Assembly (NCBI GenBank): GCA_017458225.1
Contig: JAFTFX010000004.1
Location: forward strand, 1-54,489
DNA length: 54,489 nucleotides
Direction: 5' to 3'
DNA from: Prevotella sp.
GTDB lineage: Bacteria; Bacteroidota; Bacteroidia; Bacteroidales; Bacteroidaceae
This document shows, one piece after another, positions 1 through 54,489 of the stretch; position 1 is the stretch's first letter; each line of letters opens with the position of its first letter. The translations under genes were made by a program, and so were the position numbers. The notes under the pieces were generated by a model. That model made no database searches. It was not told the DNA's origin and saw nothing but the letters and a program-made list of their open reading frames with translations.

Positions 1-138
1 ACAGGAGAATTGCATCCATACAGGCCAAAATCAACCGAAGGCCAAGGGAAAAACTAAACTTTCTCACACCAAATGAAGTCTTTTTCAAACATTATGCCTA
101 ACTTTGCACACAACTTGCACTTGCTGGTTGACTCTATA
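1..138 (+). mobile_element. IS30-family element, right-end fragment at window edge
   Basis: Bases 2-138 are the exact reverse complement of 54353-54489. The segment holds the 3' end of a transposase frame (3-101) plus about 37 bp of non-coding end. Identity with the other edge stops at 138, which places the element boundary at or just before that base. The body of the element lies outside the window to the left. The next base pairs begin a terminator hairpin that has lost its upstream gene. Confidence 0.85.
3..101 (+). CDS. IS30-family transposase, C-terminal fragment (partial at window edge)
   Basis: Reading from base 3 gives 32 codons ending at TAA 99-101. The residues include INRRPREKLNFLTPNEVFF, which matches the C-terminal pattern of IS30-family DDE transposases (N-x-R-P-R-K/E-x-L-x-x-x-T-P-x-E-V-F). 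The DDE catalytic residues are upstream and not in the window, so activity cannot be judged. The same 32 codons occur on the minus strand at the other edge. The family call rests on this short tail only. Confidence 0.8.
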   Translation, partial: RRIASIQAKINRRPREKLNFLTPNEVFFKHYA

Positions 139-15025: not shown

Positions 15026-16681
15026 ATGGAAACCGGATCAAGTTTCAACCAATATATCAAGGATGCAATTCTGAAGAACTGGGATGCTGACGCACTGACC
15101 GACTATCAGGGACAGACCCTCCAGTTCCACGATGTAGCCCGCAAGATTGAGAAGCTACATATATTGTTTGAGAATTGCAACATCAAAAAAGGTGACAAAA
15201 TCGCAGTCTGCGGTCGCAACTCAGCCCATTGGGCCGTAACGTTCCTGGCCACGCTAACCTATGGAGCCGTCGTAGTGCCTATCCTGCATGAGTTCAACGC
15301 AGAGCAAATTCACAACATTGTCAATCATTCGGAATCACGTCTTCTTTTTGTCGGTGACTTTGTAGCCAAGGAAATCAGCCCCGATGCGATGCCACAGTTG
15401 GAGGGCATTATCAACCTGCCCGACTTCTCACTGATGATCTCACGTTCGGAGAAACTGACCTACGCACGCGAACATCTTAACTATATGTTCGGTTCGAAAT
15501 ATCCCAAGGCATTCCGAAAAGAACACGTCAGCTATCATGAAGACCAGCCCAACGAACTGGCACTCATTAACTACACCAGCGGCACCACAGGCTTCTCAAA
15601 AGGCGTGATGCTGCCCTACCGTGGTCTTTGGGGTAATGTAGACTTCTGCATTCGCCGGTTAGGTAAGCATGTACCGGCCGGTTCGCCTGTACTCGATATT
15701 CTGCCCATGGCCCACATGTACGGTCTGAGCATCGAGTTTCTTTTCGGTTTCTGCAACGGCAGCCACCTATACTTCTTGAACCGCCTGCCATCGCCCTCAC
15801 TTATTGCCAAGGCTTTCACCGACGTGAAGCCAGCCTTGGTCATCTCCGTGCCACTAATCATCGAGAAGATCATCCGCAAAAAGGTGTTCCCCATCATTCA
15901 GAGCAACCGTATGAAACTGCTGCTGGCGATGCCTGTAGTGTCGAAGAAGGTGAAGGAGAAAATATGCGAACAGGTCTACGAGGCCTTCGGCGGACGTGCC
16001 TACGAAGTCATCGTCGGCGGTGCTCCCCTATCGAAAGAGGTAGAACAGTTCCTCCTGTCCATAGGCTTCCCCGTCACCGTGGGCTATGGTGCCACCGAGT
16101 GTGCGCCACTCATCAGCTATCGCGACTGGCATGAGTTTGTTGCCAGTTCGTGCGGCAAAGCCATCGACAACATGGAGGTGTGCATAGCCAGCAACGATCC
16201 GCGCAACGTGCCTGGTGAGATTCTGGCACGCGGCACCAACGTCATGCTGGGTTACTACAAGAACGAGGAGGCCACGCGCGAGGCTCTCGATAGCGACGGC
16301 TGGTATCACACAGGCGATCTGGGCACCATGGACAGCGACGGCAACATCTTCATTCGCGGTCGCATCAAAAACATGCTGCTCGGTGCCAACGGACAGAACA
16401 TCTATCCTGAGGAGATTGAGGACAAGCTGAACTCGATGCCGATGGTGGCTGAGAGCGTCGTCATACAGGAAGACGAGAAACTGGTGGCACTGGTCTATCC
16501 TGATCAGGACGAGATTGTGAACTTCTCGACTGAAGAACTGGAGGCCGTCATGGAGCAAAACCGCCACGGACTCAACGAGGCTCTTCCAGCCTACAGCCGT
16601 CTGTCGGCCATCCGCCTGCACAACGAAGAATTTGCGAAGACACCTAAGAAAAGTATCAAAAGATATCTTTACCAAGCATAA
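15026..16681 (+). CDS. AMP-binding acyl-CoA (or acyl-ACP) ligase, copy 1
   Basis: 551 residues, ANL superfamily. The ATP phosphate loop is YTSGTTGFSKG (about 183-193), motif A5 is GYGATECAP, motif A7 is YHTGDLG, and the C-terminal hinge and catalytic lysine region is KTPKKSIKRYL. GRIKNMLLGANGQNIYPEEI is typical of Bacteroidetes long-chain fatty acid ligases. It should activate fatty acids as acyl-adenylates and transfer them to CoA at the inner face of the membrane. Substrate length cannot be read. It is followed after 6 bp by a close paralogue, clearly a tandem duplication sharing one promoter. Confidence 0.88.
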   Translation: METGSSFNQYIKDAILKNWDADALTDYQGQTLQFHDVARKIEKLHILFENCNIKKGDKIAVCGRNSAHWAVTFLATLTYGAVVVPILHEFNAEQIHNIVNHSESRLLFVGDFVAKEISPDAMPQLEGIINLPDFSLMISRSEKLTYAREHLNYMFGSKYPKAFRKEHVSYHEDQPNELALINYTSGTTGFSKGVMLPYRGLWGNVDFCIRRLGKHVPAGSPVLDILPMAHMYGLSIEFLFGFCNGSHLYFLNRLPSPSLIAKAFTDVKPALVISVPLIIEKIIRKKVFPIIQSNRMKLLLAMPVVSKKVKEKICEQVYEAFGGRAYEVIVGGAPLSKEVEQFLLSIGFPVTVGYGATECAPLISYRDWHEFVASSCGKAIDNMEVCIASNDPRNVPGEILARGTNVMLGYYKNEEATREALDSDGWYHTGDLGTMDSDGNIFIRGRIKNMLLGANGQNIYPEEIEDKLNSMPMVAESVVIQEDEKLVALVYPDQDEIVNFSTEELEAVMEQNRHGLNEALPAYSRLSAIRLHNEEFAKTPKKSIKRYLYQA

Positions 16682-16687
16682 ATTACT

Positions 16688-18349
16688 ATGGAAAAAATAC
16701 CAAGTTTTAACGAACTCATCGAGAAAAGCGTCATCGAGAACTGGGATCTTGACGCACTGACCGACTATAAGGGACAGACCCTGCAGTTCCACGATGTAGC
16801 AAGAAAGATAGAGAAACTGCATATTCTCTTTGAAAATTCTGGCATTCAGAAAGGCGACAAGATTGCCCTTTGCGGACGCAACTCCAGCCAGTGGGCAGCT
16901 GCTTTTCTGGCCACGCTGACCTATGGTGCCGTGGCAGTACCTATCCTGCATGAGTTCATGGCCGACCAGATTCACAATATCGTGAACCACTCGGATGCCC
17001 GCATTCTCTTCGTGGGAGATCATGTCGCCTCTATCATCGACCCACAGCAGATGCCCCACTTGGAAGGCATCATCAGCAATACCGACTATTCGCTCATAGT
17101 CAGTCGCACCGACAAGCTAACCTATGCCCGTGAACACCTGAACGAGCTCTATGGCAAGAAATATCCCAAGTATTTCCGCAAAGAGCACGTCAGCTACTAC
17201 CACGAGCAGAGCCCCGACGAGATGGCACTCATCAACTACACCAGCGGTACTACGGGCTTCTCGAAGGGTGTCATGATTCCCTATCGTGCACTCTGGTCGA
17301 ACTACGACTTCGCCTGCGACGTGCTGGGCAAGACCATCAAAAAAGGTGATAACGTCATCAGCATTCTGCCGATGGCCCACATGTATGGCATGGCCTTCGA
17401 GTTTATCTTCGAATTCCTGCACGGCTGCCATGTGTACTATCTGAACCGCATCCCGTCGCCAGCCATCATCGCACAGGCTTTTGCCGACGTGAAACCAAAG
17501 ATTATCATCGCCGTTCCGCTGGTCATTGAGAAGATCATCCGCAAGAAGGTATTCCCAAAGATACAGAACAACCGCATGCGCCTGCTGCTGGGCATGCCCG
17601 TCATCTCAAAGAAGGTGCGCGAAATGATTTGCCAGGAAGTGGTCAAGGCTTTTGGCGGCAACATGTACGAGGTTATCATCGGCGGCGCTGCCTTCAATCA
17701 GGAGGTAGAGCAGTTCCTGAAGCGCATCAACTTCCCCTATACCGTGGGCTACGGTGCCACTGAGTGTGCACCCATCATCTGCTACGCCGACTGGCACAAT
17801 TTTGCGCCCGGCTCCTGCGGACAGGCCGTGCTGCACATGCAGGTGAAGATCGACTCACCCGACCCAGAAAATATTCCCGGTGAGATTCTTGCTCGCGGCT
17901 TGAATGTCATGCTGGGCTATTACAAAAATGAGGAAGCCACACGCCAGACCATCGACAAGGACGGCTGGTATCACACTGGCGACCTTGGCACGATGGACGG
18001 CAATGGTAATGTCTACATCAACGGCCGCAGCAAGAACATGCTGCTTGGTGCCAACGGACAGAACATCTATCCCGAGGAAATTGAGGACAAGCTAAACTCG
18101 ATGCCGATGGTTATTGAAAGCATCGTCGTACAGCGCGAAAGCAAACTTGTAGCCCTTGTACACCCCGACCTCGACGAGGCTCGCAACATGAACTTCTCAC
18201 AGAAAGACCTTGAGGAAGTGATGGAACAGAACCGCAACACACTGAACCAGATGTTGCCAGCCTACGAGAAGATTTCAGAGATGGAAATCTACGAGGAAGA
18301 GTTCGAGAAGACTCCGAAAAAGAGTATCAAGCGCTATCTGTACAAATAG
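16688..18349 (+). CDS. AMP-binding acyl-CoA (or acyl-ACP) ligase, copy 2
   Basis: 553 residues, strongly similar to the upstream gene along its whole length: YTSGTTGFSKGVM, GYGATECAPI, YHTGDLGTMDG, GRSKNMLLGANGQNI and KTPKKSIKRYLYK all recur. All ANL motifs are intact, so both copies should be active. Differences cluster in the acyl-pocket half (for example GMAFEFIFEFLHGCH against GLSIEFLFGFCNGSH), consistent with a different chain preference. The last codons and stop are part of a 14-bp tandem duplication (18340-18367). No terminator separates it from the convergent sensor gene. Confidence 0.88.
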   Translation: MEKIPSFNELIEKSVIENWDLDALTDYKGQTLQFHDVARKIEKLHILFENSGIQKGDKIALCGRNSSQWAAAFLATLTYGAVAVPILHEFMADQIHNIVNHSDARILFVGDHVASIIDPQQMPHLEGIISNTDYSLIVSRTDKLTYAREHLNELYGKKYPKYFRKEHVSYYHEQSPDEMALINYTSGTTGFSKGVMIPYRALWSNYDFACDVLGKTIKKGDNVISILPMAHMYGMAFEFIFEFLHGCHVYYLNRIPSPAIIAQAFADVKPKIIIAVPLVIEKIIRKKVFPKIQNNRMRLLLGMPVISKKVREMICQEVVKAFGGNMYEVIIGGAAFNQEVEQFLKRINFPYTVGYGATECAPIICYADWHNFAPGSCGQAVLHMQVKIDSPDPENIPGEILARGLNVMLGYYKNEEATRQTIDKDGWYHTGDLGTMDGNGNVYINGRSKNMLLGANGQNIYPEEIEDKLNSMPMVIESIVVQRESKLVALVHPDLDEARNMNFSQKDLEEVMEQNRNTLNQMLPAYEKISEMEIYEEEFEKTPKKSIKRYLYK

Positions 18350-26305: not shown

Positions 26306-26325
26306 CATTGCAATTGGCGGTATTT

Positions 26326-26501
26326 GCTTGTAAGTAAATGGTCGTCTGCTTACAAGTGAATGGTCGTTTGCTTGTAAGCGAATGGTCGTTTGCTTGTAAG
26401 CAAAAGTTGCAAAGCATGTCATTTTGCACCATGAAGCGAGCGTTCTTGTACCGTAATTCATGCTCTTTTGTACCGCAAAGCATGAACGATTGTACTGGAA
26501 A
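26326..26501. repeat. Eight degenerate 22-bp tandem units (array 1)
   Basis: Unit starts are 26326, 26348, 26370, 26392, 26414, 26436, 26458 and 26480, with no spacing errors. Units 1-3 share GCTTGTAAGCGAATGGTCG with few changes. Unit 4 keeps only GCTTGTAAGC. Units 5-8 share a second type, GCATG-N5-TTGTACCG-N-AAA. The array lies between a hairpin and the promoter of the next gene (-7 element at 26582). 22 is not a multiple of 3, and every frame across it is repeat-derived, so it is not coding. Confidence 0.85.
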
Positions 26502-26581
26502 ACAACAGGAAATGGCCTCCATTTTGTACAATTTCGCCTGAAAATGAACAAATACACTGGTTACAATACGGCAGTTTCTGC

Positions 26582-41515: not shown

Positions 41516-41713
41516 GAAGAAAAAGATACAAATCTCGCTCTAATTCGCTATGAATTCCACTCTGATTTGCTATGAATTCCGCTCTAATTCAATACAAACC
41601 AGAGTAGAAAATGACGCAAAACAGAGAAGAAAGTGACGCTAATTGCAGCAGCGTTTGACGTTTATTGCAGCAACGCTTGACGTTCACACCCTGAGCGGTT
41701 GACATCTTTCAAA
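41516..41713. repeat. Nine degenerate 22-bp tandem units (array 2)
   Basis: Unit starts run every 22 bp from 41516 to 41692. The three units from 41538 begin CTCTAATTC or close variants. The five from 41604 carry TGAC at exactly offsets 9-12 of every unit, with flanks drifting. The first unit (41516) shares ATACAAA in phase with the fourth. Neighbouring units are most alike, which suggests local duplication followed by divergence. It lies upstream of the dipeptidase promoter. Confidence 0.8.
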
Positions 41714-41734
41714 AACACCTAACAACCTAACACC

Positions 41735-41820
41735 ACATGCCGTAAAGCATCTGTAGCAAAGGCTTTGCGGCATGTTACCTGTTGGTGCAACACCTAACAT
41801 ACACCTACCGTAGAGGTAAC
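41735..41820. other. Hairpin-rich element between array 2 and the oxidoreductase promoter
   Basis: ACATGCCGTAAAGC (41735-41748) pairs with GCTTTGCGGCATGT (41762-41775) over 14 positions with one G-U. GTTACCT (41774-41780) also pairs with AGGTAAC (41814-41820). ACACCTAAC recurs three times around it. It may be an RNA structure or a small decayed element; no T run marks it as a terminator. Confidence 0.4.
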
Positions 41821-41875
41821 AGGACAGAGAATGGAGCGGGGTGATGGCAATAGAGGGGAAAAAAGCTAAAATATA

Positions 41876-41907
41876 TTTGGCTTTTCCTTTGTTTTTCAGT
41901 ACCTTTG
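41876..41907 (+). promoter_or_regulatory. Promoter TTTG-N20-TACCTTTG
   Basis: TTTG (41876-41879) and TACCTTTG (41900-41907), an exact consensus pair 26 nt before the TTG start of the oxidoreductase. Confidence 0.85.
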
Positions 41908-41933
41908 CAGGCGAAACTTAAACGGTTGAGGCA

Positions 41934-42917
41934 TTGAAAAAGATTAAATGGGGCTTCATAGGCTGTGGTGAGGTGACCGAGAAGAAGAGCGGACCAGCCT
42001 TCAGCGAAGTTGAGGGATCGAGCGTAGTGGCGGTGATGAGCCGCTCGGAACTAAAGGCTCGCTCCTACGCTGAGCGGCACGGCATACCGCGCTGGTACAC
42101 CGATGCACAGGAGCTCATAGACGACCCTGAGGTGAATGCCATCTACGTAGCCACCCCACCCTCCAGTCATGCCACCTTTGCCATCATGGCCATGAAGGCT
42201 GGCAAGCCTGTCTATGTGGAGAAGCCACTGGCTGCCAGCTATGACGACTGCGCTCGTGTGAACCGCATCAGCGAGCAGACGGGCGTGCCCTGTTTCGTGG
42301 CCTACTACCGGCGCTACCTGGACTACTTTCAGCGAGTGAAGCAGATTGTGGAACAGGGCACGATAGGCGAAGTGATCAGCGCACAGGTACGCTTCGCCGT
42401 TCCGCCACGCGAACTCGACTACAACAATGCCGAGGCTCTGCCTTGGCGACTGCAGCCCGACATTGCCGGCGGCGGCTATTTCTACGATCTGGCTCCCCAT
42501 CAGCTGGACCTGTTGCAGGAACTGTTCGGCGTAATTATCGATGCGCAAGGCATCTGTGCCAACCGAGGAAAGCTATACCAGACGGAAGACACGGTGAGCG
42601 CCGTGTTCCGCTTCGAGAATGGACTGCCTGGCTCGGGCTCGTGGTGCTTCGTGGCTCATGAGTCGGCACGTGAAGACAGCATTCAACTGATAGGCAACCG
42701 GGGCTCGCTGCGTTTCTCAGTGTTCGACTATGCCCCCATAGAGCTGCACACCAGCGACGGCAACGAAGAAATACAGATAGAGAATCCTCCTTACGTGCAG
42801 TTCCCATTGATTAAGAATGTGGTGAAACACCTGCAGGGACTGGCCATCTGCAACTGTACCAGTGTGTCGGCTACCCCTGTCAACTGGGCGATGGACCGCA
42901 TTCTTGGAAAATTCTAA
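41934..42917 (+). CDS. Gfo/Idh/MocA-family oxidoreductase
   Basis: 327 residues. The NAD(P)-binding Rossmann motif GFIGCGEVTEKK is at the N-terminus. The family EKP motif is VYVEKPLA (E96-K97-P98). The C-terminal domain has DLAPHQLDLLQELFG, with the histidine expected to help catalysis. Members oxidise or reduce sugars, inositols or biliverdin; the substrate here is unknown. The only in-frame start fitting the N-terminal motif is TTG at 41934, after a strong promoter. The next gene starts 5 bp after its stop, so they form a unit. Confidence 0.85.
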   Translation: MKKIKWGFIGCGEVTEKKSGPAFSEVEGSSVVAVMSRSELKARSYAERHGIPRWYTDAQELIDDPEVNAIYVATPPSSHATFAIMAMKAGKPVYVEKPLAASYDDCARVNRISEQTGVPCFVAYYRRYLDYFQRVKQIVEQGTIGEVISAQVRFAVPPRELDYNNAEALPWRLQPDIAGGGYFYDLAPHQLDLLQELFGVIIDAQGICANRGKLYQTEDTVSAVFRFENGLPGSGSWCFVAHESAREDSIQLIGNRGSLRFSVFDYAPIELHTSDGNEEIQIENPPYVQFPLIKNVVKHLQGLAICNCTSVSATPVNWAMDRILGKF

Positions 42918-50865: not shown

Positions 50866-52611
50866 ATGGAAAATAACGCTCAGCTCATTGCCCAGTGCGA
50901 GGCACAGGCAAAGCAGTGGCTCACTCCGGCCTTTGACGAGGAGACCCGTAAGGAAGTACAGGCTATGCTTGACAATCCCGACAAGACAGCCCTTATCGAT
51001 GCTTTCTATCAGAATCTGGAGTTTGGTACGGGCGGTCTGCGCGGCATCATGGGTGCCGGCACCAACCGCATGAACAAGTATATCGTGGGCATGGCCACTC
51101 AGGGCTTCGCCAACTATATCAACAAGGCTTTCCCTGGCATTCAGCCTAAGGTTGTAGTCGGTCACGACTGCCGCAACAACGGCCGCATGTTTGCCGAGAC
51201 CGTTGCCGACATCTTCTCGGCCAACGGCATCAAGGTCTATCTGTTCGAGAGCCTGCGCCCCACCCCAGAGATTTCATTCGCCATCCGCCAACTGGGCTGT
51301 CAGGCCGGTGTAAATGTAACGGCTTCGCACAACCCCAAGGAGTACAATGGCTACAAGGCCTACTGGGACGACGGTGCACAGGTGTTGGCTCCACACGACA
51401 AGGGCATCATCGACGAGGTAAACAAGGTGACCATCGACCAGGTGAAGTTCGAGGGCAACAAGGAGCTCATCGACATCATCGGCGGTGAGATGGACTGGGA
51501 CTACCTGCAGGCTGTCAAGGAGGCCATGGTCGACCAGGATGTCATTCTGCGCCATAAGGACCTGAACATTGTCTACTCGCCCATGCACGGCACTGGCCGC
51601 GTCATCATTCCCGAGGCACTGCGCTCATGGGGCTTCCAGAACATCCACGTTGTTCCCGAGCAGATGGTCATCGACGGCAACTTCCCCACGGTGGTTTCGC
51701 CTAACCCCGAGAATGCCGAGGCCATGACCTTAGGCATGAAACTTGGTACACGCCTGAATGCCGACCTTGTGATCGCCAGCGACCCCGATGCCGACCGTCT
51801 GGCCATCGTTTGCCGCAACGCCAAGGGCGAATGGGAGATTCTGAACGGCAACCAGACCTGCATGATGTTCTGCTGGTACATCATCGCTAACAAGAAGAAG
51901 CTGGGCCAGCTGAAGGGCAACGAATTCCTGGTAAAGACCATCGTGACCACCGAGGTTATTGCCGAGATTGCCAAGAAGAACGGCGTTGAACTGCGCGACT
52001 GCTACACGGGCTTCAAGTGGATTGCCAACGAGATTCGCATCAGCGAGGGTGTGAAGAAATACATCGGCGGTGGTGAGGAGAGCTTCGGCTTCCTGCCGTT
52101 CGATAAAGTTCGCGACAAGGACTCCCCCGCTTCTATCTGCCTCATCTGCGAGATTGCCGCATGGGCAAAGGACAACGGCATGACGCTCTACGACCTGCTC
52201 ATGAACATCTATGCTGAGTACGGCTTCTCGAAGGAGGTCACCATCAACGTGGTGAAGCCTGGTAAGACTGGTGCCGACGAGATTAAGCAGATGATGGTCG
52301 ACTTCCGCAGCAATCCTCCTCAGCAGCTGGGCGGCTCAAAGGTATGCCTCGTGAAGGACTACCAGACCCTGGAAGCCAAGTATGCCGACGGCCGTGTAGA
52401 GAAGTTGAACATGCCTACCACCAGCAATGTGCTGCAGTGGTTCTGCGAGGATGGCACCAAGATCAGCGTGCGTCCTTCAGGCACCGAGCCCAAAATCAAG
52501 TTCTACACCGAGATCAAGGATCCTTCGTTCAAGTGCGCTGGCTGCTACGAGCGTTGCACCAAGGCCGCTGAAGAGAAGATTGAGAAAATCAAGAAAGATT
52601 TGAACCTGTAA
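50866..52611 (+). CDS. Phospho-sugar mutase (phosphoglucomutase/phosphomannomutase, PgcA-like)
   Basis: 581 residues, the longer bacterial alpha-PGM form. The phosphoserine loop VTASHNPKEYNGYK has S154. The Mg loop is DPDADR (D306, D308, D310), the sugar loop is GGGEESFGF, and the C-terminal phosphate loop is RPSGTEPKIKFY. It interconverts hexose-6- and hexose-1-phosphates, feeding glycogen and nucleotide-sugar synthesis. Substrate choice between glucose and mannose cannot be decided. Its end lies in a 22-bp tandem duplication. Confidence 0.92.
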   Translation: MENNAQLIAQCEAQAKQWLTPAFDEETRKEVQAMLDNPDKTALIDAFYQNLEFGTGGLRGIMGAGTNRMNKYIVGMATQGFANYINKAFPGIQPKVVVGHDCRNNGRMFAETVADIFSANGIKVYLFESLRPTPEISFAIRQLGCQAGVNVTASHNPKEYNGYKAYWDDGAQVLAPHDKGIIDEVNKVTIDQVKFEGNKELIDIIGGEMDWDYLQAVKEAMVDQDVILRHKDLNIVYSPMHGTGRVIIPEALRSWGFQNIHVVPEQMVIDGNFPTVVSPNPENAEAMTLGMKLGTRLNADLVIASDPDADRLAIVCRNAKGEWEILNGNQTCMMFCWYIIANKKKLGQLKGNEFLVKTIVTTEVIAEIAKKNGVELRDCYTGFKWIANEIRISEGVKKYIGGGEESFGFLPFDKVRDKDSPASICLICEIAAWAKDNGMTLYDLLMNIYAEYGFSKEVTINVVKPGKTGADEIKQMMVDFRSNPPQQLGGSKVCLVKDYQTLEAKYADGRVEKLNMPTTSNVLQWFCEDGTKISVRPSGTEPKIKFYTEIKDPSFKCAGCYERCTKAAEEKIEKIKKDLNL

Positions 52612-52639
52612 GTAAAAAGACTTGAACCTGTAAGTAAAC
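52596..52639. repeat. 22-bp tandem duplication across a stop codon
   Basis: Two adjacent 22-bp copies (52596-52617 and 52618-52639) differ at only two positions. Each contains TTGAACCTGTAAGTAAA, so the last codons and the stop of the mutase gene are repeated downstream. Confidence 0.9.
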
Positions 52640-54352: not shown

Positions 54353-54489
54353 TATAGAGTCAACCAGCAAGTGCAAGTTGTGTGCAAAGTTAGGCATAAT
54401 GTTTGAAAAAGACTTCATTTGGTGTGAGAAAGTTTAGTTTTTCCCTTGGCCTTCGGTTGATTTTGGCCTGTATGGATGCAATTCTCCTG
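54353..54489 (-). mobile_element. IS30-family element, right-end fragment at window edge (inverted copy)
   Basis: Exact reverse complement of 2-138. The element body lies outside to the right. Flanking bases differ from those at the left copy (GTCAGC against AAAAGG after the shared ...GACTCTATA), which sets the element boundary. Confidence 0.85.
54390..54488 (-). CDS. IS30-family transposase, C-terminal fragment (partial at window edge)
   Basis: Same 32 C-terminal codons and stop as the left-edge fragment, on the minus strand, including INRRPREKLNFLTPNEVFF. Truncated only because the window ends here. Identity of the two copies at base level suggests recent transposition or gene conversion. 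Confidence 0.8.
   Translation of the reverse strand, partial: RRIASIQAKINRRPREKLNFLTPNEVFFKHYA

Follow-up and report, generated by a model that had tools for sequence, protein, structure and literature searches.

A period-22 repeat array in a Prevotella genome as a probable orphan copy of an array from a VapE-encoding mobile element

Results

The array and its surroundings

The stretch of Prevotella DNA analysed here—hereafter the window—comprises 54,489 nt. Within it, array 2 lies between two divergent genes that we consider neighbours only: a peptidase C69 gene (39804–41450, minus strand; Pfam PF03577, 2e-87), upstream of which the array is situated, and a GFO/IDH/MocA oxidoreductase gene (41934–42917, plus strand). 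As delimited by the lag-22 segment and the unit listing, array 2 extends from 41525 to 41705, without an assigned strand, and is made up of some eight 22-bp units arranged in imperfect dyad symmetry, constituting a solo copy of what we term family A. The identity at lag 22 reached its maximum there, at 42–45 of 66 bases, and in the 54,489-nt window comparable peaks at that cut-off were found only in array 1 (26323–26504, no strand; a lag-22 segment of 4 + 4 units, family B); a third period-22 example, at 52592–52638 (no strand), is weak and has two units. Monomer shuffles (n = 5, ~420 kb) yielded not one lag-22 peak at cut-offs of either 36/66 or 40/66. The existence of array 2 as a genuine repeat array is confirmed.

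The original prediction of nine units was borne out for the ~8.2 units that the lag-22 segment spans, whereas the first of the nine, at 41516–41537, is marginal because it shares only ~11 of 22 bases with the next unit. The five TGAC cores expected at a fixed offset in consecutive units do start exactly 22 bp apart, at 41612, 41634, 41656, 41678 and 41700, and occupy the right half of the array (41612–41703, plus strand), in which, by eye, the units carry a CAGAG- or GCAGC-type block followed by TGACG. In the left half (41525–41600, minus strand), according to the by-eye unit listing and the symmetry test, the units are mostly reverse-oriented, with CTCTG or CTCTA as the complement of the CAGAG-type block, for which reason the TGAC phase is confined to the right half. 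The dyad score of the entire array was 14 versus a mean of 8.3 for a null in which the columns were permuted and the period retained (z 4.5), and the best symmetry axis, with 39 of 78 pairs, fell near 41593. At the sequence level, array 2 is indeed unrelated to array 1, as had been claimed.

A second dispersed palindromic element (41711–41815, no strand), built of 11-bp repeats resembling ACACCTACCAT, adjoins array 2; other copies occur in L223, L226, L235 and L041 (13688–13790), and the same type of element also borders, on contig C37, a family-A array and is present in several genus genomes. Comparison of this element with 12 vapE arrays gave no match above the null. When the intergenic region of array 2 was used as a query, matches appeared in 139 of 249 genus genomes, most of those listed corresponding to positions 41861–41916 in the GFO/IDH promoter region, which segment resembles many sites in the genus; among the matches listed for the whole intergenic region, that promoter region and the hairpin beside array 2 predominated. 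The two ends of the window (1–138 and 54353–54489) carry one and the same repeat, also present at the ends of other contigs, which is probably the end of an insertion sequence that broke the assembly.

Families of arrays in the source genome

Array 2 is no lone sequence with nothing but its period in common with other arrays: it belongs to a dispersed family, one copy of which lies beside a vapE gene. The source genome contains 15 further matches to array 2, of 72–88% identity, at 14 distinct places, one of them matched on both strands; in 59 other genomes, the family-A array L003 used as query found one weak match. Family B occupies 18 distinct places in the source genome, array 1 included, and no vapE partner for array 1 or its family was found in the source assembly, which is 74.7% complete. 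In ~420 kb of source-genome stretches, partly picked around known matches, lag 22 was the most frequent at either cut-off. In the intergenic DNA of 727 kb of the same genome, Tandem Repeats Finder returned 35 period-22 arrays and no more than 9 for any other period of at least 10, the sample being enriched for family A because its stretches were partly selected around known array-2 matches.

Near family-A arrays we found a 90-bp inverted repeat with arms TTTTGCATACACTGCTGTCACT. At least one arm, with up to 5 differences, is present within ~270 bp of 14 of the 18 family-A arrays, and two arrays, those of L034 and L035, are bracketed by arms in repeat-array-repeat elements of ~250 bp; a 20-base core of the arm occurs with at most 2 mismatches at 32 sites versus 0 for the reversed control. 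This terminal repeat is absent within ~270 bp of array 2 and of three other family-A arrays (n = 18), and inspection of the flanks of some copies by eye revealed no clear target-site duplication. Family-B arrays, for their part, are adjoined at three contig ends (L202 1–140, L203 1–140 and the end of L217; contigs C27, C28 and C16) by a ~140-bp sequence that is perhaps an insertion-sequence end, and the arrays may be targets for insertion. The source genome also contains a period-41 tandem array (L043, from 233).

Arrays beside vapE genes

One array-linked vapE gene is present in the source genome, on contig C3, and a second vapE gene is truncated where its contig stops. In the linked copy a family-A array (L029, 15712–15890) ends 30 bp before the start, at 15921, of a gene for a VapE-like SF3 helicase (PF05272, 3.8e-32; DUF3874, 2.2e-16), the helicase domain of which is homologous to PDB 7pds (phmmer 4.5e-13). 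Inverted repeats of 31 nt and 81% identity (15530–15560 and 17136–17166) enclose both array and gene, the right repeat lying inside the 3' end of the latter.

Among 23 vapE loci from six genomes—22 of them, the two on source contigs included, read in stretches wider than the search locus, the exception being a G006 locus, and one G026 gene having been missed by the ORF finder—there are nine in which a period-22 array lies no more than 70 bp from the gene. Eight of these arrays are upstream, at 28–55 bp (the distance in L280 presuming an internal start codon), and one is downstream; four of the nine are copies of a single G024 block. None of the three VapE genes of G016 has an adjoining array. 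The downstream case, L268 from G024, consists of one array and one VapE gene, with no other gene called, enclosed by inverted repeats of 155 nt (74%), and across the elements read these repeats measure 31–155 nt. Four further relatives were read: in a phage-collection record (MT836291), whose VapE is 46% identical, arrays flank the gene on either side; in another two records and one Bacteroides plasmid there are none. A scan of viral_contigs with a VapE protein gave no match. The longest array seen in its sample, L288 (2240–2709), lies upstream of a BT4734/VapE gene, spans ~21 periods of 22 bp and is bordered on either side by inverted 11-bp repeats. In G024, a multi-gene block surrounds VapE (L263–L266), with copies mostly 90–96% identical where aligned; the block in L265 encodes a Toprim/DnaB-like protein, an HU-like protein and a tyrosine integrase.

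The seven clear cases in which the array precedes the vapE start codon by 28–55 bp recall the position of an operator, and it could be that the arrays serve as vapE operators instead of origins. An explanation along these lines, by which VapE would repress its own gene while the solo arrays arose as by-products of transposition, an unrelated transposase using the inverted repeats as its substrate, is also in keeping with the 31–155-nt repeats that the elements carry. We nevertheless judge it unlikely, since the array of L268 is downstream of the gene, those of MT836291 flank the gene on both sides, and the ~21 periods of L288 are long for an operator.

Arrays upstream of loci chosen irrespective of arrays

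The BT4734-like domain PF08800 is found in 98 of 150 genus genomes, from which the best 30 PF08800 loci were picked irrespective of arrays. Within 1 kb upstream, 17 of those 30 loci have a lag-22 segment and 15 a lag-11 segment, while each lag that is not a multiple of 11 appears in at most 2 of the 30; at 13 of the 30 there is no adjacent array. The frequency of lag-22 segments was far lower upstream of background genes, at 24 of 905 (Fisher 1.7e-17 versus 17/30), or 19 of 202 for genes with an upstream gap of at least 300 bp (Fisher 1.3e-8), and likewise upstream of C69 genes themselves, at 3 of 79 (Fisher 2.7e-9); the background genes all derive from 80 C69 loci, in genomes different from those of the VapE loci. 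In the order outside the genus, neither a lag-22 nor a lag-11 segment was found at any of 29 PF08800 loci, among which 13 are full-length fused genes (0/13) and the remainder shorter ORFs, the source C5 locus being excluded. Less than 1 kb of upstream sequence was available for 2 of the 30 genus loci and 7 of the 29 order loci. The segment-score cut-offs were 20 for these upstream tests, 26 for the catalogues and 28 for the densities. In this genus, then, arrays are linked to vapE, lying upstream of or beside many vapE genes.

Period-22 arrays across the genus and the order

At score 28, period-22 arrays numbered 21 in 1,457 kb of 80 named loci with mostly Prevotella or Prevotellaceae titles. 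Stretches of 200 kb each contained 6 in G024 and 1 in G016, and 234 kb from other genus genomes contained 2; in 259 kb from the other families of the order there were none at that score, and Tandem Repeats Finder gives one. In the 80 loci the same program counted 27 arrays of period 22, which there is less outstanding because periods 14 (24 arrays) and 21 (20 arrays) are almost as common. Neither of the outcomes that would have told against the original prediction came about: period-22 arrays are common elsewhere in the source genome, and arrays of one relative, G016, show a TGACG-like core at 22-bp spacing. Its broader proposal, that a common process yields period-22 arrays of differing sequence, gained support; unrelated arrays with that same period recur across the genus.

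In the 66-array catalogue the number of units rounds to 4 in 20 arrays and to 7 or 8 in 23. After removal of arrays with more than 85% A+T prior to the dyad and folding tests, dyad symmetry at z > 2 was found in 33 of 49 catalogued arrays, and 50 of 66 arrays folded more stably than their column-permuted versions (z < -2) on at least one strand. That folding would suit arrays that act as hairpins of RNA or single-stranded DNA, for example as attenuators or transposase substrates. We consider such a role quite improbable, as compensatory covariation among units is absent from those arrays, 26 of 66, that have a unit dyad—607 paired cells versus 631 expected (z -3.2), a count biased downward by the arrays that switch orientation—and the arrays have no preferred orientation relative to genes. 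RNA hairpins in particular we rejected, on account of that lack of covariation and of any Rfam match above the thresholds, the two miRNA hits obtained being far below theirs.

Solo arrays match the vapE-linked arrays of their own genomes

Array 2 aligned to the vapE-linked array of its own genome with a local score of 52, as against a null maximum of 30 and a best score of 24 for any other genome. In the G024 stretches, which were chosen by position, all six solo arrays matched a VapE-linked array of that genome (scores 55–140, null maximum 31), two of them lying in 98%-identical duplicates, two others being 80% alike over 694 bp and one being a deletion derivative; in G006 the single solo array did the same with a score of 84; and in both genomes the own-genome match exceeded that of any other genome. 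In the source genome, 15 of 34 solo arrays matched the VapE-linked array of contig C3 (scores 48–87), a fraction enriched for family A because the stretches were partly array-2-selected; 8 of the 34 had entered through the array-1 search. The other 19, array 1 included, had no match to the source vapE array in this 74.7%-complete assembly, and the solo arrays tested from G026 and G028 matched no VapE array in the set. The G016 array L130 matches the source VapE array, in a genome whose own VapE genes are without adjacent arrays. In these comparisons some array spans were set by eye or covered two arms, and a G026 array 848 bp upstream of vapE was omitted. Many solo arrays, in sum, find their match in a vapE-linked array of the genome they come from.

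One pair reveals how a solo array can be derived. The G024 array L138 is 90% identical to the left end of L268 over 438 bp, the 5' end of the gene included, and then continues directly with 80% identity over 469 bp into the array and right end of L268, so that ~1.9 kb of the gene is gone: the L138 solo array is a vapE element that has lost the greater part of its gene. The internal deletion of an autonomous element is the classical origin of non-autonomous elements.

Genomic placement and the peptidase C69 gene

The position of array 2 had been read as placement near the promoter of a secreted protein, which is not a general feature: 40 of 49 arrays lie between two called genes in every relative orientation (11 ++, 10 --, 10 +- and 9 -+), 8 are inside called ORFs of 78–318 codons that are mostly short and doubtful, and 1 is near the end of a locus. 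A regulation of the C69 or GFO/IDH promoters by array 2 could be argued from its situation between divergent genes and from the relatives L081 and L086, which also have unrelated period-22 arrays closely upstream of C69. We hold that reading to be very improbable and rejected a regulatory role at C69, inasmuch as lag-22 segments are present within 1 kb upstream of 3 of 79 C69 genes, little above the frequency for all genes (24/905), and arrays are present in all intergenic contexts. A GFO neighbour near C69 occurs in 1 of 80 relative loci, and a comparison with empty sites at the C69 locus met with intergenic DNA that could not be aligned among the loci compared. Array 2 is probably without function for the neighbouring genes.

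Discussion

The explanation that we favour, and to which we assign a probability of roughly 0.6, is that array 2 is an orphan, non-autonomous copy of the iteron-like array of a mobile element encoding a BT4734/VapE protein. Array 2 seems to be a stray copy, among many, of an origin-like array that belongs to such an element in Prevotella-like bacteria and that retains its 22-bp spacing as its sequence changes, and the palindromic element next to it at 41711–41815 may represent a further orphan of this type. The helicase domain of the mobile element's protein is of the VapE-like SF3/AAA+ type and is often preceded by a BT4734-like N-terminal domain. VapE or a partner would bind half-sites that share one face of the helix at 11-bp intervals, in the manner of initiators on iterons, and, once bound, would open or copy the element at the array. 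Helical phasing, with half-sites one turn apart, would fix the 11- and 22-bp periods, and protein and site would co-evolve in sequence. Derivatives that keep the ends and the array and lose the gene would then spread in trans through intergenic regions and subsequently decay, array 2 being probably one of these. Binding, origin activity and movement of the arrays are what we infer.

VapE has been linked to phage satellites. The helicase domain shares homology with the VapE-type helicases represented by PDB 7pds ('Similar to D. nodosus vapE'); a point of difference is that the VapE gene of L268 is the sole one called between its inverted repeats and is accompanied by period-22 arrays. The iteron origins of plasmids and phage satellites are, alongside the BrickBuilt MITEs, the closest known systems: in the available text on PLE, RepA is the replication initiator bound to tandem, semi-palindromic iterons of its own element, and iteron sequences differ between replicons (PMC7145576), as do the arrays here. 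The arrays adjoin vapE in the vapE-linked copies, VapE being the putative initiator and array 2 itself an orphan; iteron origins, however, have RepA_N or Rep_3, whereas here VapE is the neighbouring gene, the chromosome carries many scattered orphan arrays and the origin role is presumptive. An explanation by decoys of plasmid iterons was rejected, there being no Rep_3 gene (PF01051; 0 matches in the source assembly, 74.7% complete), no plasmid match to a family-A array or to the array-1 query, and no phage-record match to array 2.

Two further classes of dispersed repeats merit comparison. REP and REPIN sequences with RAYT transposases are dispersed intergenic palindromes, one superfamily of which has a CGTC tag according to the available text (PMC3733652); they resemble the arrays in being dispersed and palindromic between genes (PMC3733652) and differ in that the arrays are tandem with an exact period. 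The source genome has a single Y1_Tnp match, in whose surrounding 12.5 kb we found no period-22 array at score 24, and a RAYT/REP origin was rejected since the repeats do not flank that lone match.

Porphyromonas gingivalis belongs to the same bacterial order as Prevotella, and its BrickBuilt family is the nearest published case that we found. As described in the available text, BrickBuilt is a MITE with 23-nt tandem repeats in 1 to 22.8 copies, always intergenic, with IS5-like ends GAGACC...GGTCTC, in P. gingivalis and P. gulae; MITE464/PgRS of P. gingivalis has 41-nt internal tandem repeats; and tandem repeats of 22 and 41 nt were also noted in strain W83 (PMC4596501). The likeness lies in dispersed, intergenic elements that contain tandem repeats, are predicted to form long stem-loops and end in inverted repeats (PMC4596501), and the arrays studied here are, correspondingly, intergenic and dispersed; the period-41 array of the source genome even has the unit length of MITE464 (PMC4596501). 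The difference resides in the units, of 23 or 41 nt versus 22 bp in arrays of mostly 4 to 8 units, and in the partner: the period-22 arrays have many sequences and accompany vapE, whereas for BrickBuilt and MITE464 that text yielded no link with a helicase gene (PMC4596501). Array 2 departs from BrickBuilt in its period of 22 rather than 23, and family A in its TTTTGCATACACTGCTGTCACT ends, which are not IS5-like. A deletion derivative that shares the ends of the autonomous element, as is expected of MITEs in general, is exemplified by L138 versus L268 in another genome of the genus; around array 2 itself no such ends were found.

It might accordingly be proposed that the arrays are minisatellite MITEs of the BrickBuilt type, with repeats passively carried in small transposons and a 22-bp period that is merely historical. 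BrickBuilt and MITE464, being dispersed, bounded by inverted repeats and internally repetitive in the available text (PMC4596501), lend this proposal plausibility, as do the ~250-bp elements of L034 and L035. We find it distinctly unlikely, in that passive carriage leaves unexplained the one period across unrelated sequences, the genome-by-genome matching of solo and vapE-linked arrays, and the dominance of lags 11 and 22 upstream of vapE. In the library of papers searched we recognised no account of period-22 arrays in Prevotella or of their link to VapE, which absence does not prove novelty.

As a bolder and more tentative extension of the orphan-copy explanation, which we deem possible at somewhat less than even odds, Prevotella-like genomes would harbour very small transposable replicons with VapE as the sole gene, bounded by inverted repeats and using a helically phased array as origin. 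Initiator and array would form lineage-specific pairs, free in sequence under a fixed 11/22-bp ruler, and the orphan origins would be parasites of parasites or decoys that titrate the initiator.

The orphan-copy explanation provides a single account of intergenic arrays that share a period without sharing a sequence and ties those arrays to VapE, a protein whose role is, to our knowledge, poorly known. If the arrays are binding sites of VapE, the co-evolution of an initiator with its site would be readable across many species, and each genome would hold many natural variants of that site. If the explanation is true, it would also define a minimal mobile element that has a helicase but no recognised transposase.
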